55,680 bases of DNA, from positions 1-55,680 of the forward strand of contig JAJYMC010000048.1 of assembly GCA_021787335.1 (NCBI GenBank). Direction: 5' to 3'. Below are positions 4,996 through 54,318 of the stretch, piece by piece (position 1 is the first letter of the stretch; each line of letters opens with the position of its first letter). The translations under genes and the position numbers were made by a program. Origin of the DNA: Bacillota bacterium. Lineage in GTDB: Bacteria; Bacillota; Sulfobacillia; JAJYWN01; JAJZPE01. A model generated the notes under the pieces. The model saw only the letters and a program-made list of their open reading frames with translations, was not told the DNA's origin and did no database searches.

Positions 4996-5709
4996 CTACG
5001 CACCTCCAGTTCCATGAAGTGGGTTCCTGTACACGCCGATCTTGCTGTGGGTCAGTCCCAGGTCGAGAAGGGCCTGAAGCATCCGCACCGCGGCGGCGGC
5101 CGGCTCGACCACCGGGACGCCGACCTCTTCCCGTACGGTTTTGGCCACTTCGGCCATGCAGGTGCAGCCGAGGACGATGACTTCGGCCCCATCCCGCGTG
5201 ACGGCCTCCCTGGCCGCCTCGGTGATGACCCGCGCCGTCAGGCCGGGATCGCGCCCGAGTTCGAGGACGGGAATCTCAACCCCGACCGCCGAGGCCAGCC
5301 TGGCCTCCAGCTCCAGGGCTCGGGCCTGCCTTTCCACCCAGGGGCCGGAATTCCTGAAGGTCGAGACGACCGAGAACTTGTGCCCCAGCGTGGTGGCCAG
5401 GCGCATGGAGGCCTCGGCCGGCCCGACCACCGGGATGTCCACCAACTCCCGGGCCGCCTCGACCCCTGGGTCGGCGAAGCAGTTGATCATGACCCCGTCG
5501 TACCTGCCGGCCGCCTCCGCGACCACGTCGAGGACCCCCTGAAGGGAGAACCCCTCGTCAAAATAGGTCTCGACCGACGCCGGCCCGGTCTTCAGATGGA
5601 CCGAATCGATGGCGAGGTCGTGACCGCGGGCCAGGCCGGCAAAGTAATCCCGGAACTTCTCCTCCAGGCCGGCCGTGGTCACCGGGTGGATGACGAGAAC
5701 CTTCTTCAT
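4996..5709 (-). CDS. Asp/Glu/hydantoin racemase-family protein (copy 1)
   Basis: The 237-residue protein begins MKKVLVIHPV and carries the two catalytic-type cysteines of the family, C77 in INCFADPG and C182 in VLGCTCM. Such enzymes invert the C5 of hydantoins or act as decarboxylases or maleate isomerases. It overlaps the upstream paralogue by 4 bp, showing translational coupling. The two racemase-like genes are clearly related but divergent, for example in the C-terminal 25 residues, so they may act on different stereocentres or form a heteromer. Substrate unproven. Confidence 0.85.
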   Translation of the reverse strand: MKKVLVIHPVTTAGLEEKFRDYFAGLARGHDLAIDSVHLKTGPASVETYFDEGFSLQGVLDVVAEAAGRYDGVMINCFADPGVEAARELVDIPVVGPAEASMRLATTLGHKFSVVSTFRNSGPWVERQARALELEARLASAVGVEIPVLELGRDPGLTARVITEAAREAVTRDGAEVIVLGCTCMAEVAKTVREEVGVPVVEPAAAAVRMLQALLDLGLTHSKIGVYRNPLHGTGGA

Positions 5710-40977: not shown

Positions 40978-42636
40978 CTAGTGCTTCTCAATCCAGGCGT
41001 TCTTGAAGTCCACGCCGCCGATGGTGTTGATGGCGAGCCCCTTGACATAGGGCTTCATCAGCCAGTTGCTGACGTAGTAATAGATGGGCGCGACGACCAT
41101 GTCATCGCCGATGAGGATCTTCTCGGCGTCGTGCATGGCCTGCATCCGGACCTTTGGGTCGGCCGACATCTTCGCCGTATTGATCAACTCATCGAATTTC
41201 GGGTTGGAGTACGTCGTGTCGTTATTGCCGCCGTTGGTGACGAACATGTCCATGAAGGTCATCGGGTCGACGTAGTCGCCGATCCAGCCGGCCCGCGCCA
41301 CCTGGAAGTTATGAGCGTCCCTGGTCTCCAGATAGACCTTCCACTCTTCCACATGGAGCTTGACCTTCTCCTTGGGGATGCCAAGGTTCTTGGACCACAT
41401 CTCCTGGATGGCCTCGGCGATGGCCTTGTGGCTGGCGCTGCTGTTATAGATGATCTCGAAGCTCGGGAACTTCTTCATGTCCTTGTATCCGGCGTCGGCC
41501 AGGAGCTTCTTGGCCGCCTCGATGTCTTCCTTGAAGTAGTCTCCGCCGACAGCTCGGAAGTCCTTGCCAGCCTCGGTATCCGGAATGCCGGGACAAACGA
41601 AGGCGTAGGCCGGTAACCGCCCGTCCTTGAGGATCTGGTCAGTGATGAGTTTGCGGTCGATGGCCATGGCGAAGGCCTTGCGAACCCGCGGGTCATCGAA
41701 GGGCTTCTTGGTGACGTTGAAGGAGTAGTAGTAGGTGCCCAGGTAGGGCAGCGTAGTGAGCTTGCCCTCTTTCTTCAACCGGTCGATCTCCTGCACAGGC
41801 ACGTTATTGTCGAGGTCGGTCTGGCCGCTCTCCCACATGGTCAGCCCGGTGTTCTGATCGTCGATCAGATAGATCATCAGCTTCTTGAGGGGAACATTCT
41901 TGGCGTCCCAGTAGGTCTTGCTCTTCTCCATCTCGATGACTTGGTTGTTGACCCACTTCGTCATCTTGAAGGGGCCGTTGGTGACGAACTGCTCCGGCTT
42001 GGTGGCCCACTTGTCGGCGAACTTCTCGACTTCCGCCCGGTGGACGGGATAGAGGGTCGGGAACGAGGTCAAGCCGAGGAAGTACGGGGTCGGGGCCTCG
42101 AGGGTAACCTCGAGGGTATAGTCATCCGTGGCCTTGACGCCGAGGGCGTCGGACAGCTGCTTGATCTTCGCCTCGTCCTTGGCGTCGACCTCGTTAAGGG
42201 TCTTGCCGCCCTTGATGTAATACAGCTGATAGGCATACTGAGACCCGGTCCGCGGATCGAGAGCCCTCTTCCAGGACCACTCGAAGTCCTTCGCGGTGAC
42301 CGGGTCGCCATTGGACCATTTTGCGTTTTTGCGCAGGTGGAACGTATACTTCAGATTGTCGGACGAAATATCCCACTTCTCAGCTACGCCGGCGTAAGGC
42401 TTGTTGTTCCCGTCCATTCTGGTCAAGCCTTCGTACATCTGGGATCCGATATTGAACTCTGGAATGCCTGTCTGGAGGGCCGGATCGAGGGTCTCCGGCT
42501 CGGCGCCGACGTTGAACCGGAGGGTCTGATCCTTGGCCAGGTCACCAACCCCGGCCGGCTTCTTGGCGCAGCCCGCCAATCCCAGCGAGAGGGCCACGGC
42601 CACAGTCAGCATGATGGCGATGAGTTTCTTAGACAA
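40978..42636 (-). CDS. Oligopeptide-binding lipoprotein (OppA-like), second system
   Basis: The 552-residue lipoprotein has signal and lipobox LAGC near residues 20-23. The mature part has the family-5 features TLRFNVGAEPETLDPALQTG, QMYEGLTRMDGNNKPYAGVAEKW and KFHLRKNAKWSNGDPVTAKDFEWSWKR-like pattern, closest to OppA rather than DppA. It should bind peptides of several residues. The start is TTG 42636 with GAAGGA. It heads the operon oppA-B-C-D-F. Confidence 0.93.
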   Translation of the reverse strand: MSKKLIAIMLTVAVALSLGLAGCAKKPAGVGDLAKDQTLRFNVGAEPETLDPALQTGIPEFNIGSQMYEGLTRMDGNNKPYAGVAEKWDISSDNLKYTFHLRKNAKWSNGDPVTAKDFEWSWKRALDPRTGSQYAYQLYYIKGGKTLNEVDAKDEAKIKQLSDALGVKATDDYTLEVTLEAPTPYFLGLTSFPTLYPVHRAEVEKFADKWATKPEQFVTNGPFKMTKWVNNQVIEMEKSKTYWDAKNVPLKKLMIYLIDDQNTGLTMWESGQTDLDNNVPVQEIDRLKKEGKLTTLPYLGTYYYSFNVTKKPFDDPRVRKAFAMAIDRKLITDQILKDGRLPAYAFVCPGIPDTEAGKDFRAVGGDYFKEDIEAAKKLLADAGYKDMKKFPSFEIIYNSSASHKAIAEAIQEMWSKNLGIPKEKVKLHVEEWKVYLETRDAHNFQVARAGWIGDYVDPMTFMDMFVTNGGNNDTTYSNPKFDELINTAKMSADPKVRMQAMHDAEKILIGDDMVVAPIYYYVSNWLMKPYVKGLAINTIGGVDFKNAWIEKH

Positions 42637-43008
42637 TGGTTCCTTCGACCTCCTTCGGAAGACCTTCTCCGAACGGAAGCCGTCGGGCCTTGCTTCGCTT
42701 GTCTTGCTTGCCTAAGAACGAGCCTCGCCTCACGGGCTTGCGCGCGTTTCAGACGGTCTTTGCGCTTCCGAGCTTTCCGGCGGTTCCGTCCCCAGGAAAC
42801 AAGGACTGGAAACGTGGGCAAAAGACCGAAACCTAACACACCCCGAATCGCGACGGAAACCAGGTCGCCCCACTCTCACCCCCTGTGAGCTTCCCGCCGG
42901 GCTGAAGCCCTGTAGAAATGCGGGTAATGGGCATAATTGGCACAAATTATCTAATTCGCTCCCAGGTTCCGGAATCCTGCGTTCTTTCTAATAGGTTGGA
43001 AGAGTTAA
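42637..43008. other. Upstream region of the second opp operon
   Basis: About 370 bp lacks a supported gene. It contains runs of short GCTT-type repeats (42680-42715) and an AT-rich spot at 42935-42962 that could hold the oppA promoter. A short basic open frame on the minus strand (42606-42839) overlaps the oppA start and has no support. Confidence 0.4.
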
Positions 43009-43033: not shown

Positions 43034-43080
43034 TCAGGTGCGATGGCGGGCGTCGAACCGAGATCCGGGCGGCGGGCCGC

Positions 43081-44553
43081 CTAACCCGCCGGGAGCGAGA
43101 ACCAGAAGCGGGCTCCGTCGGCCGGGACGTTCTCGGCCCCGACCGCCCCGCCGTGGGCCTCGACGAAGCCCTTCACGATGGCCAGTCCCAGGCCGGTCCC
43201 CCCCTCGGCCCGCGTCCTGGTCGGCCCGGTAGAAGCGGTCGAACACGTGGGGCAGGTCCTCGGGCGGGACGCCGGGACCACTGTCGGTGACGCTGACGAC
43301 GGCCGCGGGGCCGCCTTCCGCGCCGTGCCCCCCTGGTCCTTGCCCGGGGACGACGTCGATGCTCACCCGGCCATCCTGGCCGGCGTGGCGCAGGGCATTG
43401 GTTAGCAGGTTGAGGAGGACCTGCTTGACCCGGTCGGGGTCGGCCTCGACCGGCGGGACGCCGGCCGCCTCCTCGACCTGAAGGTCGATGGCCAGCCGCT
43501 CGGCCTCGGGGCTGATCACCCCGACCACCGAATGGGCCAAGGCCGCCAGGTCGAGGCGCTCCTTCCGCAGGGGCAGCTGGCCGGCCTCGGCCAGGCTCAG
43601 TTCCCGAAGGTCGTTGACCAGACGGGTCATCCGCAGGACCTCGTCCTGCAGGGACAGCAGGACCTCCGGACGCAGCGCGGCCGCGTCCTCCTGGGCCGCT
43701 TCGAGCTGGCCGCGGAGAATGGCCAGGGGCGTCCGGAGCTCGTGGGCAATGTCGCCGACCATGTTCCGCCGCAGCTCCTCATTGCGCTGAAGGCTGCGGG
43801 CCAGGAAGTTGAAGGCCCGGGCGAGGTCCCCGATCTCGTCACTGCGGTCCTCCGGGACGCGGTGGGCCAGCTCTCCCCGGGCCAGCCGGTGGGCACCGGC
43901 GGCCAGGACGTCCAGCGGCCGGCTCAAGCGCCTTGCCAACCAGACGGCGACCAGCCCGGCGAGGACGGCCGACAAGAGGCCCCCCAGGACCGAGATGACC
44001 AGCGCCGAGTGGGAGAAGTCGCTGTCGAGCGCGCTCAGGCCAGCCCGGGGCCCGGTGACCAGGGTACCCGCTGCCCGTCGACGAGGATGGGACGCCCCGC
44101 GTTGATGACGGCTCGGCTGAGGACGGTTCCCACGGCCGGGGCGTCACCGCCCTCGGGGGATAGGGTCGCGACCACCCGGCCATCGCGGTCGGCCAGGGTC
44201 AGCGTCTCGGACCCGAGGAGACTATGCGGAGGCCCACCCGGCCAGCCGCCGTAGCGCCCAAAGCCCATCCGGCCCAGGCCTCCCCAACCCGGAGTCGACA
44301 TCATCGTCTGAACGCCTTCCCAGCTGCCGTTGGCGGCGTAGTAGCCGGCCAGGGTCGCCTGGACCTGCTCGAGGCGGGCGTCGCGCTGCCCGGCCAGGTA
44401 CCCGGCGAAGAGCCGCTGGGTGGCCAGGCTCGAGACCAGGCCGACGAGGGTGGCGCTGACCACGACGACGCCGATGAAGGACAGGGTCAGCCGCCGGGCG
44501 AGGTTCATCCGGCGCAGGAACAGTGAGTCGGAAAAAGGCCGTGGTGCCTTCAT
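43081..44553 (-). pseudogene. Decayed sensor histidine kinase (copy A)
   Basis: This region is a close paralogue of the intact kinase at 50138-51604 along its whole length, but it has at least two frame breaks. Near 44060-44080 a deletion joins GQRV to an unrelated tail, so the N-terminal frame ends at 44035. Near 43215 a 5-base loss (GCGTCCTGG against GCGTCCGGGCCTGG in copy B) shifts the frame within the ATP-binding domain, leaving the [13 protein letters not shown] block in another frame. The HAMP and HisKA ([15 protein letters not shown]) parts are still readable. The start overlaps the regulator's TGA exactly as in copy B. It is non-functional as a single protein. Confidence 0.85.
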
Positions 44554-44819
44554 CGTCCCTCACCTCCCCCGCCCTTAAACTTGTAGCCGACTCCGAAGAC
44601 GGTGCCGATGAACCTCGGCTCTGAGGGGTCGGTCTCGACCTTCTTGCGGAGGTTGCGGACACGGGTGTCGACCGAACGCTCGTAGCCCTCCTACGCGTAG
44701 CCGAAGGCTGCGTCCAGCAGCTGCAGGTGTGAGAAGACCATACCCGGGTGCCGGGCGAGGGCCCCGAGGATGGCGAACTCGGTCGGGGTCAGGCGACCGG
44801 CCGTCGACGGTCAGCGTCT
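44550..44819 (-). pseudogene. Truncated response regulator (copy A)
   Basis: Only the C-terminal winged-helix part remains (RSVDTRVRNLRKKVE and FIGTVFGVGYKF). Homology to the intact regulator at 51601-52311 stops near 44819 within the segment matching its GRPIDLTPTEF region, so the receiver domain is absent. A nonsense change is also present: the codon matching Tyr in the FGYAYEGYE run of copy B is TAG (near 44695). The break is immediately next to the AT-richer island, so insertion or deletion at the island edge probably removed the rest. Confidence 0.8.
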
Positions 44820-44978
44820 GCACATCTCTCACTGGCTGGCGGGAAGGAATGTGGGCTGTGTCGGATTTCAGCCCTTCCTGTCGAACTCTAATCGCTCTTC
44901 CCTTGAAGGAACTGGCACTGATGGTGTCGAAACCCTGGCATAAAATAGGCTCCGGCACAGATGTTGGGAGGCATTAGG

Positions 44979-47117
44979 ATGTTAGATTCTGGCCCGAATT
45001 ACGTATTTGGGACTCGACGACGTATGTTCGAAGACGGAGGAGCAAGATACCTAACCTTTGTCGTAACTCAGAACTGTAACCTTGCATGTAAATACTGCTA
45101 TGTAACTCACAAGAACGCTCATGGAAGGATGAGTTTTGACACCGCGCGAAGGGCAGTGGACTTTTTTCTCTCACAAGACTTCCCTCAAGACTCCGTGGTA
45201 TGGGACTTTATTGGAGGCGAACCGCTGTTAGAAATACAACTTATCGATCAAATCTGTGATTATATCAAGGTGGAATCGTACAGGCGGAACCACAAATGGA
45301 AAGACCGCTACCTCATTAACATGAGTACAAATGGAGTACTGTATGACAGCAAGCCAGTTCAGACGTTCATTGCAAAGAACCGCGAAAAGGTAAACTTTGG
45401 CTTGACCATTGACGGGATCAAAGCCAAACATGACGCGAACAGAGTATACCCGGACGGGTCCGGTTCCTATGAGGATGTTATTAGAAGCGTGAGGTTATGG
45501 TCCCAGCAATTCCCCGAAGCGGTCACCAAAGTAACCGTTGCCTCTGATGACTTGCCTTACCTTTACGAGAGCATCGTTCATCTTTGGAACCTCGGCTTAA
45601 GAGATGTACCCGCTAACGTCGTCTACGAAGACGTTTGGAAGCCGGGCGACGACCAGATACTAGAAGTACAGTTAAAGGAATTGGCGGATTACGTTATAGA
45701 CAATAAGCTTTGGAACAAGGTCAGATGTACTTTCTTCACTGATACGATTGGGTTCCCCAATAAGAGAGAGTATCTTTATTCTAATGCATGCGGAGCCGGA
45801 AGGTCCATTGCCGTCGACCATACCGGATCGCTGTACCCGTGCTTGAGGTTTATCGGTTACTCCCTGAATAACAAGAATGGATACACTGTCGGCCACATTG
45901 ATCGCGGCTTCGACCAGGACAAGATCAGGGCCTTTGAAGCCTTGACTCTCTTGGCCCAAAGCAAACAAGAATGTATTGAATGTCCAATAGCCTTTGGATG
46001 CACATGGTGTCAAGGGTGGAACTATGATTCTGCACCTTCCGAAACCATATACCATAGATCAACCGCAATATGCAGGATGCACAAAGCAAGAATAAGAGCG
46101 AACGAGTACTATTGGGGTAGACTGGCCAGAGAAACTGGAATGCGTCGCCCGCAGCAAGAACAGGGAAAATGGCTTAGGCATCTCTTCATTATGGCTTCAG
46201 ATGATGCAGTAGTTCATTGTTCCTATGAGAACAAGAGCACAGATTTCACTTTGATCGATGTTTCGCACCTTATAGCCGGACTCCGCTTCGCGGAGCGCGA
46301 GTTTTTCAGACCGGTCATCCTTCATTCAAAGTCTGGAGAGAGGTTATTAATCCCTTCGCCGTATGATCCTCTTCACATCGTGAGCGGTGATAAGGCCTGC
46401 GCCGATTCGGAAATCGCAGTTCATGAGAATACCGTCCAGGACTCAGTCTCAACAGACACAAGCATACTTATCGTCGACAATGGGTTGATTCCGGCCATTG
46501 GTGATCTGACAAGCAAGCTATTGGACCAATCCCGCAGAGTTAACCTTGTTCTCCGCGACCCTGGATCCCTCTCTCCGCATGACCTTGTCATGTACGAAGA
46601 ACAACTGAAACTTGTGGCGCGAAAACTCTTGTCGCTACGCTCCGCGGGGATAAAAAAGGAAGTTAGTGCTATAACCGACCGCTTTGAGCTTGGAGAACCA
46701 GAGGACTGCGGCGCCGGCGTGAGCAGTCTAACTCTCGCGCCCAATGGGCGTCTATATCTATGCCCTGCGTTTTATCTCGAAGATAAGGGGTCATTTGTTG
46801 GAACTCCAGTTGACGGGATAGACATGAACAAGGTCGAGATGTGCACGCGAAAGAAAGCTCCTTTGTGCCAAGATTGCCAAGCTTTCTCTTGTCGACGTTG
46901 CCTTTATCTCGGGAGAAAGTATACCTTGCAGATGAACGTCCCTTCGAAGGCACAGTGCACTACCGGATTGGTTGAACTCCGAGTTAGCGCTTGGATGGCA
47001 CGTCAGATAGAAAAGGTAGGTCCGGACTGGGTGAGCGTGGCTGAAAAGGATGAGCTTTTGGACCCTCTTGAACGGCTATTCTCGCGGACCCGCCTAGTGG
47101 GGGCGGGTGCGCTATGA
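44979..47117 (+). CDS. Radical SAM/SPASM peptide maturase with a second SPASM-like half (CXXX-repeat type fusion)
   Basis: This 712-residue enzyme should modify the Cys-rich peptides coded downstream. Residues 25-230 are a radical SAM core: C33, C37 and C40 in QNCNLACKYCY bind the SAM cluster, followed by WDFIGGEPLL. Residues 265-370 are a SPASM domain with C271 (CGAGRS), C288 (YPCLRF), C332, C335, C341, C344 and C365. From about 400 a second half lacks the SAM motif but repeats the ending: C577 (CGAG), C595 (LYLCPAFY), C622, C630, C633, C638, C641 and C660. From memory the halves correspond to TIGRFAM families for CXXX-repeat peptide maturation, usually separate genes. ATG 44979 lies 7 bases after GGGAGG. 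The coding sequence is AT-richer than its surroundings. Confidence 0.85.
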   Translation: MLDSGPNYVFGTRRRMFEDGGARYLTFVVTQNCNLACKYCYVTHKNAHGRMSFDTARRAVDFFLSQDFPQDSVVWDFIGGEPLLEIQLIDQICDYIKVESYRRNHKWKDRYLINMSTNGVLYDSKPVQTFIAKNREKVNFGLTIDGIKAKHDANRVYPDGSGSYEDVIRSVRLWSQQFPEAVTKVTVASDDLPYLYESIVHLWNLGLRDVPANVVYEDVWKPGDDQILEVQLKELADYVIDNKLWNKVRCTFFTDTIGFPNKREYLYSNACGAGRSIAVDHTGSLYPCLRFIGYSLNNKNGYTVGHIDRGFDQDKIRAFEALTLLAQSKQECIECPIAFGCTWCQGWNYDSAPSETIYHRSTAICRMHKARIRANEYYWGRLARETGMRRPQQEQGKWLRHLFIMASDDAVVHCSYENKSTDFTLIDVSHLIAGLRFAEREFFRPVILHSKSGERLLIPSPYDPLHIVSGDKACADSEIAVHENTVQDSVSTDTSILIVDNGLIPAIGDLTSKLLDQSRRVNLVLRDPGSLSPHDLVMYEEQLKLVARKLLSLRSAGIKKEVSAITDRFELGEPEDCGAGVSSLTLAPNGRLYLCPAFYLEDKGSFVGTPVDGIDMNKVEMCTRKKAPLCQDCQAFSCRRCLYLGRKYTLQMNVPSKAQCTTGLVELRVSAWMARQIEKVGPDWVSVAEKDELLDPLERLFSRTRLVGAGAL

Positions 47118-47135
47118 AAGGGGTTCTGAAGGAAC

Positions 47136-47453
47136 ATGGGAGAAGAGACCAGGGAATTGAGTTTGGGTTTTATAACTGAACCTGAAAACGAAGCTCTGAA
47201 GAGGATCTATGATCGAAGAATGGCATTGATGAGCTTGGCTAGAACATTGGCGACCCTGCCGGATAAGACATCTAATGACTTGTATAGCCGCCTAGTGGCT
47301 GACTCCACCTCAGTCGAGGGGGATATGCGGCACTGGTGGGAGGGTGTATGTCGTGACCACGGATGGGAAAACCCGGCTGTCGGGAGCTGGAGTGTGAACT
47401 TCCAAACGAAGGCAGTCACTGTCTATTTGCCTATCGCCGCAGGTGGGTCTTGA
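47136..47453 (+). CDS. Small accessory protein of the peptide-modification cluster
   Basis: The 105-residue acidic protein has no membrane segment or cysteine pair (one Cys, in EGVCRDHGW). It has a helical N-terminal part (EPENEALKRIYDRRMALMSLARTLATL) and a Trp-rich end (MRHWWEGVCRDHGWENPAVGSW). Size and position, between maturase and exporter, match a small protein found in CXXX-repeat systems (a TIGRFAM 'modification system protein', from memory). It may bind the leader peptide. ATG 47136 follows GAAGGA closely. The next gene begins 6 bp after its stop. Confidence 0.65.
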   Translation: MGEETRELSLGFITEPENEALKRIYDRRMALMSLARTLATLPDKTSNDLYSRLVADSTSVEGDMRHWWEGVCRDHGWENPAVGSWSVNFQTKAVTVYLPIAAGGS

Positions 47454-47458
47454 GTTGC

Positions 47459-49243
47459 ATGGCAAGATTGCGGACCAGAGCATGTTACTCTTCGAACGGT
47501 ACGACGAATAGGAGCAACGTACTTGTTCTCAGGTCTATTCGATATTGCAGCGATTTTTCTTGGTCAAGTGCGAGTATTGTCTTGATCGCAGCTTTAGGTA
47601 TGGTCTTGTCCGTTCTCTATCCCCGGCTTCTGGGACGAACACTTGATGCGGTCGTCGGCCGCAACTTGAAACTAGTCTATTCTCTGCTCCTCGCGGTCCT
47701 TGGTATTCTGTTGCTTCAAGCACTTCAAAGCCTAATGGAAACCTATCTTCTGGGAAGCATGACAGGTCGTATTGCGTGGCGGGCAAAAAAAGATCTTTAC
47801 ACCCGGGTCATTTCGCTGCCTGCCCGAAGATACGACACTACGCAGCAAGGTGAATTCCTGTCGCGAATCGAGAATGACGTAGGCGCACTTAACGCATTAT
47901 TGAGCAATCTGTTACGCCTAGTGCCTGAGTCCATACGGACGGTCGTTATCCTTGTCCTGATTTTCAGACTGTCATTTCTTCTTTCAGTCGTGCAGTTGGC
48001 CATAATCCCATTCCTCTATGCAACCTCATCTGTGTCTGGCAGGGCTCTCAAGAGGCTCAATCTGGCTTTAAGACAATTGTCTGACCGCTATTTTGGTTTC
48101 GTTCAAGAAACCTTGGCTGCAAACCGCGAGGTGAAAAGCCTACAACTAGAACAAGACCGGGTTCGGCGTTTTGCGGAATTGGCTAAGGACCTCTGGGCTG
48201 CGTCGATGTCAATAACCGTCACCCAAGCGTGTTCCGGCCTCAGCAACTTGGTTATTGGAGGTCTAGGTTCCGTTGCCATTCTGGGGTTCGCCGCACGGCA
48301 AATCGCGACCGGTGATCTCACTATCGGGGAACTGATAGCCTTTACAATGTACGCCGCGCAACTCTCCTCCGCGCTGAAGGATCTCACTGGGTTTGTCAGA
48401 CTGAAAGGCGAGCTCTCTCCGTCTCTAGAAAGGTTGTTCTCCCTGCTAGATGAGGATTCTGAGGATCCGTCGATGGTCACGGGGCATCCGATAAGGGTTC
48501 TTAGGGGCAGGGTTCTCCTTCGTAATGTGAGCTTCAGTTATGGCGATGGGGGGCCACGGGTCCTCGACGGAGTGACATGCGAGTTCGAACCCGGCCAAAT
48601 CACGGGGCTAATGGGCTCGAACGGGAGTGGTAAGACGACCCTCCTGAACCTTCTGTCCAGACTCTACACGCCACAGACCGGCATGATTCTTATTGATGGG
48701 CAGGATATACGAAACGTTGACCTTAAGAGCTTGCGGAGGGCCATATCTGTAGTCCACCAGGAACCTGCGTTCTTTCGCACGACGATCTTGGAGAACATGC
48801 TCTTGGCGAATCAAGAGGCGACTCCAGCTGAGGTCGAAAGAGCTTGTGAGCTCGCTGGAGCCGCCGCATTCATTAGAGATTTCCCAAAGCGGTACGAAAC
48901 AGTGTTGTCAGATCGGGGAGCCAGCCTGTCTGGTGGACAGCGGCAGCGGCTGGCTTTGGCAAGAGCGCTATTGAGGAGATCCCCTATCCTGCTATGCGAC
49001 GAGGCTACATCGGCTGTTGACGTCGAAACTGAGGCTCAGATCATGACGACTCTAAAGGAGTTAGCTCCTGGCCATAATATCATCCTTGTCTCCCACCGCC
49101 CCTCAGCCATCATGCATACCGACAAGGTGCTGGTTCTGGAACAAGGAAGAATTCGTCACATGGGTGTACCGCGCGAGATTCTTGACCCTAGTTTGCTGGA
49201 GCAACGGCCAAGTCTTGACTCTGCTCGTGCCAACCCCACATAG
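47459..49243 (+). CDS. ABC exporter (fused membrane and ATPase domains), probable peptide exporter
   Basis: The 594-residue half-transporter has six helices over about residues 35-290, then an ATPase with Walker A GSNGSGKTT, signature LSGGQRQR, Walker B ILLCDEAT and switch HRPS. It dimerises in the membrane to export a substrate, most likely the Cys-rich peptide. No C39 peptidase domain precedes it, so it does not itself cut the leader. Start ATG 47459 is uncertain: the site (AGGTGGG) is weak. The frame is open to 47363 but overlaps the small gene. It ends 17 bp before the tandem precursor cassettes. Confidence 0.85.
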   Translation: MARLRTRACYSSNGTTNRSNVLVLRSIRYCSDFSWSSASIVLIAALGMVLSVLYPRLLGRTLDAVVGRNLKLVYSLLLAVLGILLLQALQSLMETYLLGSMTGRIAWRAKKDLYTRVISLPARRYDTTQQGEFLSRIENDVGALNALLSNLLRLVPESIRTVVILVLIFRLSFLLSVVQLAIIPFLYATSSVSGRALKRLNLALRQLSDRYFGFVQETLAANREVKSLQLEQDRVRRFAELAKDLWAASMSITVTQACSGLSNLVIGGLGSVAILGFAARQIATGDLTIGELIAFTMYAAQLSSALKDLTGFVRLKGELSPSLERLFSLLDEDSEDPSMVTGHPIRVLRGRVLLRNVSFSYGDGGPRVLDGVTCEFEPGQITGLMGSNGSGKTTLLNLLSRLYTPQTGMILIDGQDIRNVDLKSLRRAISVVHQEPAFFRTTILENMLLANQEATPAEVERACELAGAAAFIRDFPKRYETVLSDRGASLSGGQRQRLALARALLRRSPILLCDEATSAVDVETEAQIMTTLKELAPGHNIILVSHRPSAIMHTDKVLVLEQGRIRHMGVPREILDPSLLEQRPSLDSARANPT

Positions 49244-49337
49244 CCGTGGCCATTCCTCCTGACTTTGCCTAATGCCTTTACAGTCATTGGCCTCGCAAGA
49301 ACCACTTGCTAGCTCAAGGTTGCCATGAAGGAGGTGA

Positions 49338-49499
49338 ATGACATGTATCTTATCTCCAAGACCATTGGTGCGTCCTTTGTACACATGCGAGGTCTCGACA
49401 AATGGCTGCACAACTTGTAGCGATACTTGCTACGGCGGATGCAGCGGTTCCTGCACTGCTACGTGCACTGGATTTGTGAAATTAGGGCCAAACCCTTGA
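49338..49499 (+). CDS. Cys-rich precursor peptide 1, leader frame shifted
   Basis: In the frame that keeps the cysteine core, ATG 49338 starts a 53-residue peptide whose core (CEVSTNGCTTCSDTC, then YGGCSGSCTATC) has spacing C-x6-C-x2-C-x3-C-x3-C-x3-C-x3-C, nearly the same as peptide 2. Its first 16 residues (MTCILSPRPLVRPLYT) differ from the leader MYLISKTG of peptide 2. That leader is instead coded from ATG 49343, 5 bases on in another frame, and stops after 25 codons at 49420. Compared with copy 2 there is a 5-base length difference in the leader. The ATG 49338 lies only 3 bases after GGAGG, so translation is doubtful. Probably a broken precursor; frameshifted or reinitiated expression is possible. 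Confidence 0.55.
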   Translation: MTCILSPRPLVRPLYTCEVSTNGCTTCSDTCYGGCSGSCTATCTGFVKLGPNP

Positions 49500-49563
49500 C
49501 CTTCTCTAACGCTCCGCAGTTGATTGGTCGTCGCAACAGCCACCTGCTAGGTCAATGGCGCCA

Positions 49564-49580
49564 TAAAGGAGGTGAATAAC
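49564..49580 (+). promoter_or_regulatory. Strong ribosome site deciding the peptide-2 start
   Basis: AAAGGAGGTGA with an 8-base gap leads to ATG 49581. This favours MYLISKTG as the N-terminus over the in-frame GTG at 49572, which lies inside the site. Confidence 0.8.
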
Positions 49581-49790
49581 ATGTACCTTATCTCCAAGAC
49601 TGGACCACAGGTGGGTCCGTTGTACACATGCGAGGTCTCGATATATGGCTGCACAACTTGTAGCGATACTTGCTACGGAGGGTGCAGCGGTTCCTGCTAT
49701 ACCAATGCTTGCACCGGCCAGTTAGGTGGTGGTGGCTGCGACCCGGCCATAACGAATCCAAGCGGTAGCGGCTGTGTCGCGTTGCCCTAG
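49581..49790 (+). CDS. Cys-rich RiPP precursor peptide 2 (CXXX-repeat type)
   Basis: The 69-residue peptide has a short leader (MYLISKTGPQVGPLYT) and a core with nine cysteines: spacing C-x6-C-x2-C-x3-C-x3-C-x3-C-x4-C, then C in GGGGCDP and C in SGSGC. Gly, Ser and Thr fill the gaps, and there is no Lys or Arg after the leader. This is typical of substrates of radical SAM/SPASM enzymes that make thioether or other cross-links; the radical SAM gene is in the same cluster. The x3 spacing matches CXXX-repeat families. It ends before a terminator. Whether the last two cysteines are modified is unknown. Confidence 0.8.
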   Translation: MYLISKTGPQVGPLYTCEVSIYGCTTCSDTCYGGCSGSCYTNACTGQLGGGGCDPAITNPSGSGCVALP

Positions 49791-49871
49791 CGGGAACCAT
49801 CCATCAAGAAGATCCTTTGCGAGCAGCAACCTCAATCGTGGGCGACCGCCTAGCTTGGTGGTGTAACAAAC

Positions 49872-49899
49872 TTGGGCCGAATTCTTCGGCCCATTTTTT
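49872..49899 (+). terminator. Intrinsic terminator of the peptide cluster
   Basis: GGGCCGAA and TTCGGCCC arms (49874-49881 and 49885-49892) with the loop TTC are followed by A and six T. It ends the island's transcript 82 bp after the precursor stop. Confidence 0.92.
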
Positions 49900-50013
49900 C
49901 TGGGGCGCAAATGGGGCAACAGGGTGGAGCTCTACGCTCTCGATCCTGGGTCACGCCAACTCTCCCCAGCACATCTCGGCCTATTAAGAGGGGGAAAGAA
50001 GTAATCTCCTTTT

Positions 50014-50093
50014 GACTGGGCCGCGTTCCACGATCCTACCGGCGTCCATGACGATGACCCGGTCGCCAGACCTGGTTGCTACGCCCGGGAGCA
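50014..50093 (-). pseudogene. Scrap of an OppD-type ATPase gene
   Basis: About 80 bp resemble 38277-38360, the part of the oppD-like gene coding [16 protein letters not shown]. Here the minus frame reads roughly GDRVIVMDAGRIVERGP and then degenerates. It lies downstream of the intact kinase, just after the island terminator. It is a relic of importer genes that once lay beside the two-component pair or were copied with it. Confidence 0.6.
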
Positions 50094-50137
50094 AACGAAC
50101 CTTGCCCGGCTTTCGGCGGCCCAACCTTCCGGGGGGC

Positions 50138-51604
50138 CTAGCTCACTGGGAGCGAGAACCAGAAGCAGGCCCCGCCGCCGGGGACGTTCTCGGCGCCGAC
50201 CGCCCCGCCGTGGGCCTCGACGAAGCCCTTGACGATGGCCAGGCCCAGGCCTGTCCCCCCCGCGGCCCGCGTCCGGGCCTGGTCGGCCCGGTAGAAGCGG
50301 TCGAAGATGTGGGGCAGGTCTTCGGTCGGGACGCCGGGACCGCTGTCGGTGACCCTGACGACGGCCGCGGGGCCGCCTTCCGCGCCGTGCCCCCCTGGTC
50401 CTTGCCCGGGGACGACGTCGATCGTCACCCGGCCATCCTGGCCGGCGTGGCGCAGGGCGTTGGTCAACAGGTTCAGGAGGACCTGCTTGACCCGGTCGGG
50501 GTCGGCCTCGACGGGTGGAACCCCGGCCGCTTCCTCCACCCGCAGGTCGATGGCCAGCCGCTCGGCCTCGGGGCCGATCACCCCGACCACCGCGCGGGCC
50601 AGCGCCGCCAGGTCGAGGCGCTCCTTCCGCAGGGGCAACTGGCCGGCCTCGGCCAGGCTCAGCTCCCGCAGGTCGTTGACCAGACGGGTCATCCGCAGGA
50701 CCTCGTCCTGCAGGGACAGCAGGACCTCGGGGCGAAGCGCGGCCGCGTCCTCCTGGGCCGCTTCGAGCTGACCGCGGAGGATGGCCAGGGGCGTCCGCAG
50801 TTCGTGGGCGATGTCCCCGACCATGTTCCGGCGCAACTCCTCGTTGCGCTGGAGGCTACGGGCCAGGGAGTTGAAGGCGCGGGCGAGGTCCCCGATCTCG
50901 TCACCCCGGTCTTCCGGGACGCGGTGGGCCAGGTCCCCTTGGGCCAGCCGGTGGGCCCCCGTGGCCAGGACATCCAGCGGCCGGGTCAGCCGCCTGGCCA
51001 GCCATACGGCGACCAGCCCGGCGACCACCGCCGAGAGCAGCCCGCCCAGCACCGAGATGATCAGCGCGGACCGGGCGAAGTCGCTGTCGACGGCGCTCAG
51101 GCCGGCCCGGGGTCCCGTCACCAGGGTGCCGACCCGTTGGCCGCCGACGACGATGGGCCGCCCACCGTCGACCGTGGCGCGGCTGAGGACGGTGCCCACG
51201 GCCGGGGCGCCGCTGCCCTCGGGGGCCAGCGTGGCGACCACCCGGCCGTCCTGGTCGGCCAGGGTCAGCGTCTGGGAACCGAAGGAGCCGAACGGGGGAC
51301 CCCCTGGCCAGCTCCGGTAGCGGCCGAAGCCCATCCGGCCCAGGCCGCCCCAGCCGGGCGTCGACATCATCGTCTGGACACCGTCCCAGCTGCCGTTGAC
51401 GGCGTAATAGCCGGCCAGGGTCGCCTGGACCTGCTCCAGGCGCGCGTCCCGCTGCCCGACCAGGTACCCGGCGAAGAGCCGCTGGGTGGCCAGGCTGGAG
51501 ACCAGACCGACGAGAGTGGCGCTGACCACGACGACGCCGATGAAGGACAACGTCAATCGCCTGGCCAGGGTCATCCGGCGGGGGAAGAGCCGGCGGGCGC
51601 TCAT
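50138..51604 (-). CDS. Sensor histidine kinase (intact copy B)
   Basis: The 488-residue membrane kinase has helix 1 at about 17-39, an outer sensor region 40-178 rich in Gly/Pro ([24 protein letters not shown]), helix 2 at about 180-202, a HAMP domain, HisKA with phosphorylated H267 in DIAHELRTP, and HATPase with the N box (LLTNALRHA), DSGPGVP and [13 protein letters not shown]. The signal is unknown. It overlaps the upstream regulator gene by 4 bp. It is the functional paralogue of the decayed copy at 43081-44553. Confidence 0.93.
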
Positions 51605-52311
51605 CGGACGTCACCCGTCCCGCCCGTGAACTTATAGCCGACCCCGAAGACCGTGCCGATGAACCGGGGCTCCGAGGGGTCGGCTTCGATCTTCTTGCGA
51701 AGGTTACGGACATGGGTGTCGACCGAGCGCTCATAACCCTCATAGGCGTAGCCGAAAGCCGCCTCCAGCAGTTGCAGGCGGGAGAAGACCTTCCCGGGAT
51801 GCCGGGCCAGGACCCCGAGGATGGCGAACTCCGTGGGGGTCAGATCGATCGGCCGGCCGTCGACGGCCACCGTGCGGGCGTCAAAGTCGATGGCCAGCGG
51901 GCCGCGCTCGAGGCGGTCCGGCCCGGCCTTTCCACCCGCCCCGCCGGCCCGCCGGAGGACAGCCCTGATCCTGGCCGTCAATTCGCGCAGGCTGAATGGC
52001 TTGGTGACATAATCGTCGGCCCCCAGTTCGAGGCCGACCACCCGGTCGACCTCGTCCGCTCGGGCGGTGATGACGATGATGGGGATGGTGGACCCGGGCC
52101 GAAGCCGCTTGATGACCTCGGTTCCACCGAGCCGCGGGAGCATCAGGTCCAGCAGGATGAGGTCCGGAGCCTGTTCCCTGGCCATCCTCAGGCCGGTGTC
52201 GCCGTCCGGCGCGGTAAGGGTGGCAAAACCCTCGCGCCCGAGATACTCGGCGACGGCTTCACGCAGCTTGGTCTCGTCTTCGACGATGAGGATGCGGGGC
52301 GCGGCAGCCAT
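51601..52311 (-). CDS. OmpR/PhoB-family response regulator (intact copy B)
   Basis: The 236-residue regulator has a receiver domain with E11/D12, phosphorylated D55 in LILLDLMLP, the conserved Thr in ITARADE and K104 in YVTKPF, then a winged-helix DNA-binding domain (ELTARIRAVLRR linker, RSVDTHVRNLRKKIE and FGVGYKF). It is probably paired with the kinase it overlaps. An 11-bp-period direct repeat lies upstream of its start, a spacing OmpR-type proteins prefer. Confidence 0.93.
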   Translation of the reverse strand: MAAAPRILIVEDETKLREAVAEYLGREGFATLTAPDGDTGLRMAREQAPDLILLDLMLPRLGGTEVIKRLRPGSTIPIIVITARADEVDRVVGLELGADDYVTKPFSLRELTARIRAVLRRAGGAGGKAGPDRLERGPLAIDFDARTVAVDGRPIDLTPTEFAILGVLARHPGKVFSRLQLLEAAFGYAYEGYERSVDTHVRNLRKKIEADPSEPRFIGTVFGVGYKFTGGTGDVR

Positions 52312-52393: not shown

Positions 52394-52416
52394 TGTCAAG
52401 ATTCGGTCAAGGTCAT
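52394..52416 (-). promoter_or_regulatory. Direct TTGAC repeats with 11-bp period upstream of the response regulator
   Basis: On the minus strand CTTGACC and CTTGACA start 11 bases apart, with TGACC before them. OmpR/PhoB regulators bind such repeats. They are about 85-100 bp before the regulator start, near the pfk stop codon, so autoregulation is plausible. Confidence 0.35.
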
Positions 52417-53522
52417 TCGCCGTCTCCAAAGCTCACGCCGACGGCCCTGGCCGTGGCGACGAGTTCGCTGTCGGAAGGCACCCGGCGGAGCGTCCCGACG
52501 GCCTCGTCGATGGGGGCCGAGACGATGCTCTGGCCCCGCAGGGCAACCATCTCGCCGAACCGCTCCTCCTGCACGAGGCGTACGGCGGCGGTGCCATAGC
52601 GGGTGGCCAGGATGCGGTCGAAGGGCGTCGGCGAACCGCCGCGCTGCAGGTGCCCGAGGACGATGACCCGGGTCTCGACCTTGGTCAGCTCCTCGAGTTC
52701 CGCCCCGACCTGCGCCCCGATGCCGCCCAGGCGGACGGGGTCCGGGCTGAGCGGGTCGATCTTGCGGACGACCATCTGCCCCCCGGCCGGGGCCGCCCCC
52801 TCGGCCACGACGATGATGCTGAAGCGCTTGCCGTAGGCCCGCCGCTCCTTTATCTTGTCGACGACCTTCCAGATCTTGAAGGGGATCTCGGGGATGAGGA
52901 TGACGTCGGCCCCGCCGGCCAGCCCGGCCTCCAGGGCGATCCAGCCGGCGTAACGCCCCATCACCTCGAGGACCATCACCCGGTGGTGCGATTCGGCCGT
53001 GCTGTGCAGTCGGTCGAGGGCCTCGGTCGCGGTCACCAGCGCGGTGTCGAAACCGAAGGTGACGTCGGTGGCCGAGAGGTCGTTGTCAATGGTCTTCGGG
53101 ACGCCGACGACCTTGACCCCCTTGCGGGAGAGGTCGCGGGCGATGGACAACGTGCCGTCGCCGCCGATGACGATGAGGGCCTCGACGCCGTGCTCGGTGA
53201 GGTTGGCGATGGCCCCGTTGGAGACGTCGCGGAAGTCGGTCTCCCCGGCGACTTCGACGGGAGACCGGAACGGGTTGTCACGGTTGCTCGTCCCGAGGAT
53301 CGTGCCACCCCGCGGGAGCAGGCCGGAGACGTCCTTGACGGCCAGCTTGCGCATGCGGTTCTCGATGAGGCCCTTGAAACCGTCCTCGATGCCGACGACG
53401 TCGAAGCCGGCCGAGACGGCCGACTTGACGACGGCCCGGATGACGGCGTTCAGGCCGGGGCAGTCGCCGCCGCCGGTGAGGACGCCGATGACCCGTTTCT
53501 TCTCTGGTCCTTGTCCGTTCAT
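52413..53522 (-). CDS. pfkA: 6-phosphofructokinase
   Basis: The 369-residue enzyme phosphorylates fructose 6-phosphate in glycolysis. It has the nucleotide motif GVLTGGGDCPGLNA at 13-26, GGDGT at 120-124, and the catalytic PKTIDND at 142-148. The G in GGDG is the ATP-type residue, whereas K143 before TIDND is the residue found in PPi-dependent and in mixed-clade (actinobacterial-type) enzymes, so the phosphoryl donor is not certain. The start is ATG 53522 with AGGAGG 6 bases upstream. It lies 10 bp downstream of the PHP gene stop, in the serS operon. Confidence 0.93.
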   Translation of the reverse strand: MNGQGPEKKRVIGVLTGGGDCPGLNAVIRAVVKSAVSAGFDVVGIEDGFKGLIENRMRKLAVKDVSGLLPRGGTILGTSNRDNPFRSPVEVAGETDFRDVSNGAIANLTEHGVEALIVIGGDGTLSIARDLSRKGVKVVGVPKTIDNDLSATDVTFGFDTALVTATEALDRLHSTAESHHRVMVLEVMGRYAGWIALEAGLAGGADVILIPEIPFKIWKVVDKIKERRAYGKRFSIIVVAEGAAPAGGQMVVRKIDPLSPDPVRLGGIGAQVGAELEELTKVETRVIVLGHLQRGGSPTPFDRILATRYGTAAVRLVQEERFGEMVALRGQSIVSAPIDEAVGTLRRVPSDSELVATARAVGVSFGDGE

Positions 53523-53532
53523 GTCGTGCCTC

Positions 53533-54318
53533 CTAGCGTCGGCGGTTGGGCTTCGGGATGAACAGGCGGCCGGCCGGGAGGTCGAGCCGCTCGGCCATCT
53601 CCCGGCAATAGCCGATCTCGCCGACGGTCCCGCGGGTATGCCCGTCGCTGCCAAAGGAGAAGGTCGCTCCGAGTTCGAGCGCCCGCCGCAGGAAGGACTC
53701 GTCCGGGACGTGCCACAGCCCGCTTATCTCGATGGCCGCCCCATGGTCCACGGCCAAACGGATGAGGGCGTCGACCCAGTCCGCCGGGAGGTCCCGCTCG
53801 ACCCCCGGGAGCAGCGTGCAGTGGCCGACGATGGTGATGGGCCAGTCGTCGAGGCCCTTCTTGAAGGCCGCGAGACAGGCGTCCAGGAAACGGGCGCGGT
53901 CGGCGAAGGCCGCCGGCAGCTCGTAGCGGTCCTGCAGGCCCAGCCGGTAGTTGAAGTATTCGATGAAGGGGTGGTCCCGGCCGTCGAGGGTCAGTCCGTG
54001 AAGGCTGCCGATGAGATAGTCGGCCTCCTGGAGGACGCGGACCGGCCAGGTCAGGGGGATGCCCAGGTCGACCTCGAGCCCGCGGAGGAGCAGGTTGCGG
54101 TCGGCGGCCGCGTAGTACATGGTGAAGTCGGCGGCCGACCGGAGCTTCCCGTGCATCAGGGCGTGGTCGGTCAGGCCCATGACCAACCCCTTGGCCTTGG
54201 CCACGGCGGCCACCCCGTCCGGGGTCAGCTGCCCATCGGAGAAGGTCGAGTGGTTGTGCAGATCGTAGGTGAAGGGCGACGCCTCCGGCGGGGTCGTGGA
54301 AGGCTCCCGCGCGCTCAT
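53533..54318 (-). CDS. PHP-domain phosphoesterase
   Basis: The 261-residue cytoplasmic protein has the PHP metal ligands H21 and H23 in DLHNHSTFSDG, H52 in GLTDHA, a middle IVGHCTLLPG and the C-terminal FSFGSDGHT. The group includes histidinol-phosphate phosphatase-like enzymes and nucleotide phosphatases. The start is ATG 54318, coupled to the serS stop (ATGA); the longer frame to 54549 is antisense-like sequence inside serS. Substrate unknown. Confidence 0.88.
   Translation of the reverse strand: MSAREPSTTPPEASPFTYDLHNHSTFSDGQLTPDGVAAVAKAKGLVMGLTDHALMHGKLRSAADFTMYYAAADRNLLLRGLEVDLGIPLTWPVRVLQEADYLIGSLHGLTLDGRDHPFIEYFNYRLGLQDRYELPAAFADRARFLDACLAAFKKGLDDWPITIVGHCTLLPGVERDLPADWVDALIRLAVDHGAAIEISGLWHVPDESFLRRALELGATFSFGSDGHTRGTVGEIGYCREMAERLDLPAGRLFIPKPNRRR

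Follow-up and report, generated by a model that had tools for sequence, protein, structure and literature searches.

A gene cluster of the CXXX-repeat RiPP type lies on an apparently acquired low-GC island within the 55,680-nucleotide stretch of a Bacillota bacterium analysed here (contig JAJYMC010000048.1; hereafter the window), and it includes two precursor genes standing side by side. Very probably, the second of these genes (copy 2) is the working precursor, while the first (copy 1) is a recent pseudogene in which the loss of 5 bases separated the leader from the Cys core. The type of cluster is already known, and the frame split in copy 1 reveals no new mode of expression, most likely being a case of ordinary gene decay. 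It does mark the likely live substrate of the tandem pair, which matters for expressing the cluster. In addition, we point out a short common leader motif, M-x-x-x-S-K/R, for the CXXX-repeat RiPP family. The features of the locus are collected in Table 1.

Table 1. Features of the cluster and its borders (positions in the window)
Feature	Position (strand)	Description
Broken sensor kinase and C-terminal part of response regulator	43074..44817 (-)	Left island border; 4- and 5-base deletions, in-frame TAG
Radical SAM/SPASM peptide maturase	44961..47117 (+)	718 aa; TIGR04115 region fused to a TIGR04119 region
CXXX repeat peptide modification system protein (TIGR04116)	47136..47453 (+)	105 aa
ABC exporter, fused permease and ATPase	47363..49243 (+)	ABC_membrane and ABC_tran domains
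Precursor copy 1, core frame	49338..49499 (+)	+1 relative to leader frame; ATG 49338, Cys core, TGA 49497-49499
Precursor copy 1, leader frame	49343..49420 (+)	MYLISK leader followed by 19 residues out of frame; ends at TAG 49418-49420
Frame-break region of copy 1	49358..49377 (+)	Lacks 5 bases relative to copy 2, which has a GAC...GAC direct repeat here (49598-49605)
Precursor copy 2, intact	49581..49790 (+)	69 aa; CXXX-repeat core between the MYLISK leader and a C-terminal extension
Terminator-like hairpin with T run	49873..49901 (+)	3' of copy 2; hairpin itself at 49873-49893
Intact sensor kinase and response regulator	50138..52311 (-)	Right island border

Enzymes of the cluster and its relatives

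The maturase scored 511.8 bits against the TIGR04115 model (cut-off, 350 bits), and its residues 502-706 scored 194.6 bits against TIGR04119 (cut-off, 150 bits). The closest solved structure by sequence was PDB 5wgg (E value of 2.7e-26), an entry named 'Radical SAM domain protein' that we take to be the SCIFF maturase CteB. The PapB ranthipeptide and SCIFF maturases are radical SAM/SPASM relatives by sequence; however, the maturase in the window remained far below the cut-offs of both families (210.9 versus 340 bits for NF047865, PapB-type ranthipeptide, and 129 versus 425 bits for TIGR03974, SCIFF thioether peptide), and its second half corresponds to TIGR04119. The TIGR04116 protein exceeded its cut-off narrowly (51.9 versus 50 bits). 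Its structural model (pLDDT of 87.8) displays a strand-helix-helix-strand-strand order with two long helices; a Foldseek search of the PDB with this model returned no match at an E value of 0.001 or better, and VIA-align yielded Z scores of at most 7.2, within the range of common helical arrangements. The true start of the ABC exporter probably lies further inside the open reading frame, for example at ATG 47459, and no peptidase domain is present among its Pfam hits. A search against Rfam over positions 44500-50200 gave no match at the gathering thresholds.

The locus resembles the CXXX-repeat RiPP system (TIGR04115, TIGR04119, and TIGR04116) in that the maturase and the TIGR04116 protein score above the cut-offs and Cys-repeat precursors and an exporter are adjacent. 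It differs in its precursors, which have a short leader consisting of MYLISK and about ten residues and fall below the cut-offs of the target models: the copy 1 core reached 15.9 of 50 bits for TIGR04117 and 10.1 of 20 bits for TIGR04114, and copy 2 gave no hit. The Cys-Xaa3 spacing is nevertheless visible directly in the precursor sequence. Our literature search on CXXX repeat/radical SAM and on the TIGR accessions found no paper on the family.

The nearest relative is a 7,596-base contig (JAIMBG010000121.1 from the metagenome-assembled genome HOT.MB2.46, here called L007) that encodes, in the same order, a maturase (57% identical), a TIGR04116 protein (74.3 bits), and an ABC transporter. Its two Cys-repeat precursors, led by MYLTSR and MFLTSK (positions 338-484 and 5301-5462; 48 and 53 aa), each carry leader and core in one frame and likewise score below the cut-offs of the CXXX target models. 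In contrast to the window, however, one precursor lies upstream and one downstream, both are intact, and there is no tandem pair. The record of this contig (positions 1-7596) is titled Acetobacteraceae, yet it is identical to a contig of the window's own class (G433:C218), so the record name is doubtful. A more distant cluster on the Anaerococcus prevotii plasmid pAPRE01 (NC_013164.1) shares a 40% identical maturase that exceeds both cut-offs, an exporter, and a short Cys-rich peptide beginning with MNYFSK; it differs in having a precursor upstream only and a class III lanthionine synthetase gene after the cluster. The TIGR04116-like open reading frame of the plasmid (L033, 2392-2517) comprises just 41 aa and matches positions 2-36 of the 90-position profile with 32.9 bits; this cluster may have lost its TIGR04116 protein or be frameshifted.

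Among 398 genomes of the phylum, the TIGR04116 search yielded a single hit, the own genome, and the TIGR04119 search yielded one protein above the cut-off, again from the own genome, with 270 genomes having some match at an E value of 0.001. The 154 genomes of the class contained two TIGR04116 hits (G000 and G433, the own genome included), and the copy 2 precursor was found there in the own genome only. Genome contigs yielded L007 only, the plasmid search retrieved three records, of which one spanned 80% or more of the query, and viral contigs gave 0 matches by protein and 0 by core pattern. A second tandem precursor pair was not found in the phylum, class, genome-contig, viral-contig, or plasmid searches.

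The S-K/R motif at positions 5-6 of the leader is common to copies 1 and 2 (MYLISK), L007 (MYLTSR and MFLTSK), and the Anaerococcus plasmid (MNYFSK). We infer that the M-x-x-x-S-K/R start serves as the recognition leader and that radical SAM chemistry acts on the core, be it thioether formation or another reaction. In the proposed mechanism, the maturase, presumably aided by the TIGR04116 protein, would recognise this short N-terminal leader and then modify the Cys-repeat core, and the modified product would be exported by the ABC transporter.

An intact and a split precursor

The earlier note had described tandem precursor cassettes, the first with leader and core in different frames owing to a 5-base length difference, and our analysis bore out this description. 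Both copies are read directly from the sequence, the start of copy 2 lying 238 bases downstream of that of copy 1, and a search of the own genome with copy 2 returned two matches, solely copies 1 and 2. Copy 2 encodes MYLISKTGPQVGPLYTCEVSIYGCTTCSDTCYGGCSGSCYTNACTGQLGGGGCDPAITNPSGSGCVALP, a single frame running through leader and core; it ends with the TAG at 49790, beyond the position 49735 given previously as the end of the feature. Its C-terminal extension (49700-49790), which contains two extra Cys residues, is absent from copy 1 and from both L007 precursors. Five terminator-like sites were found versus 5.0 expected in shuffled sequences, so the hairpin that follows copy 2 is weak evidence by itself.

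In a functional RiPP precursor, leader and core are expected in one open reading frame, whereas in copy 1 the two frames differ by +1. The leader frame, whose ATG 49343 is preceded by AAGGAGGTGA, encodes MYLISKTIGASFVHMRGLDKWLHNL, while the core frame from ATG 49338 encodes 53 aa, including the seven-Cys core CEVSTNGCTTCSDTCYGGCSGSCTATC; the two frames overlap, both open, at 49343-49417. Alignment of the copies confirmed that copy 1 is 5 bases shorter and allowed four equivalent placements of the gap, all inside GACTGGAC of copy 2 between two GAC triplets, after which 5 mismatches are left in the compared stretch. Replication slippage would be expected to leave such a loss between closely spaced GAC triplets. 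Given the single frame of copy 2 and of both L007 precursors, it is simpler to assume a deletion in copy 1 than insertions in the others; the in-frame state is thus probably ancestral, a polarity that rests on distant relatives because the precursor pair was found in one genome only. It speaks against decay that all seven Cys codons of the copy 1 core are kept and that the core is open through to its stop codon; any decay must hence be very recent.

The coding sequences of the two copies (leader, linker, and core) are identical at 100 of 109 positions (92%), as opposed to 52 of 80 (65%) in the stretch 5' of the Shine-Dalgarno region (Fisher P value of 5.8e-6). By block, gap-free identity amounts to 16/18 over 49325-49342, 17/18 in the leader, 13/17 in the linker, and 70/74 in the core. 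This contrast supports the earlier proposal that both halves of copy 1 were under coding constraint: they appear to have stayed similar to copy 2 until recently while the intergenic sequence drifted, although a recent gene conversion would produce a similar picture. The synonymous count, on which that proposal had been based, does not carry it. The quoted TAT/TAC, GGC/GGA, and GGA/GGG differences are present, but "mostly synonymous" overstates the case, as only four of the eight differing codons among the 36 compared are synonymous (the fourth being CCT/CCG) and four are not (TTG/CAG, CGT/GGT, ACA/ATA, and AAT/TAT), an excess that is not significant (chance P value of 0.15 for all blocks and 0.09 for leader and core only).

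Under this reading, copy 1 would have been an equivalent precursor until the 5-base loss between the GAC triplets parted its frames. Ribosomes starting at ATG 49343 would now yield a 25-residue leader stub without the Cys core, and reaching the core would require a start such as ATG 49338, which is poorly placed and lacks the leader motif; it is for this reason that copy 1 would be a recent pseudogene. Copy 1 presumably gives no product and has lost its function.

Other accounts of the frame split

An assembly or sequencing error, or a mixed-strain consensus, would mean that the split is not real, with copy 1 reading through in a single frame and both precursors functional. The assembly is a draft of 65 contigs with 2.93% contamination, and the copy 1 core bears no other damage. 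However, the indel comprises 5 bases and lies away from homopolymers, which is atypical for a base-calling error, and multi-base deletions also occur in the second damaged gene at this locus. Furthermore, we hand-picked from the orthologue table 14 open reading frames (those taken to belong to the collinear flanks or to the right kinase/regulator pair) with collinear orthologues in a genome of the same genus (G001) or of the same family (G399). Each gave a single continuous alignment free of frame breaks, which in 13 cases spanned almost the whole length and in one (ORF 52413-53654) began at residue 51; this makes an assembly error in copy 1 less likely. We consider this explanation unlikely.

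A second possibility is that the overlap ATGACATG gives rise to two translation products, the leader stub (ATG 49343) and the core peptide (ATG 49338), with the leader acting in trans or the core being used leaderless. Both frames are open, the two ATGs closely overlap behind one strong Shine-Dalgarno sequence, and the core is without damage. ATG 49338 does open the core frame with a new N-terminus, as the earlier note had remarked, but the functional rescue that it had read into this start found no support, on several grounds. The Shine-Dalgarno GGAGG (49330-49334) is separated by 8 bases from ATG 49343, the same spacing as in copy 2, but by just 3 bases from ATG 49338, and the resulting N-terminus, MTCILSPRP, is devoid of S-K/R at positions 5-6. 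Moreover, in 20,000 dinucleotide-preserving shuffles of the stretch 49262-49377, an upstream ATG in the open core frame arose in 30.5% of cases (59% if ATG, GTG, or TTG was allowed), and in L007 similar out-of-frame ATGs (334 and 5294) lie between the Shine-Dalgarno sequence and the true start of the intact precursors. ATG 49338 needs no function to account for it, and no relative has a split precursor. With nothing in its support beyond the two overlapping ATGs, split expression is very improbable, and it is just as doubtful that copy 1 acts as a functional split precursor in which one Shine-Dalgarno sequence serves two overlapping starts and the maturase handles a free leader and a separate Cys core.

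Programmed +1 ribosomal frameshifting that fuses the copy 1 leader and core would suit the +1 frame of the core and the shared open stretch, but inspection by eye recognised no frameshift-prone sequence in copy 1 (no slippery motif, long homopolymer run, or stop codon at the shift region) and neither copy 2 nor the L007 precursors need such a mechanism, so that we regard it as extremely improbable. Of the two options left by the earlier note, recent decay or an alternative expression mode, decay is hence favoured, the alternative being without positive support.

The island and its kinase borders

The GC content is 47-54% across the cluster versus 67-75% in the flanking kinase copies, a contrast with the immediate neighbours, as GC is also just 57-59% farther left, at 41000-42999. 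The left kinase is 88% identical to the right copy, and the left regulator consists of the C-terminal third only. The 171 differences between the left and right copies fall at codon positions 1, 2, and 3 in numbers of 36, 24, and 111, and the 111 third-position differences indicate that the left kinase was also constrained until recently. The left kinase copy thus appears to be a fresh pseudogene showing the same kind of recent decay, through 4- and 5-base deletions, as copy 1. Both G001 and G399 have a single kinase/regulator pair at the corresponding place; the left flank of the island is common to G001 and the right flank to G399. Together with the direct copies on both sides, this arrangement suggests that the island arrived with or via the kinase/regulator duplication.

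At the right edge of the island, a short open reading frame (49984-50124) looks on inspection by eye like the final part of a peptide-transporter ATPase, and about 70 bases (50003-50072) are 82% identical to a stretch of G001 (L029, 6747-6815); this open reading frame is probably a gene remnant.
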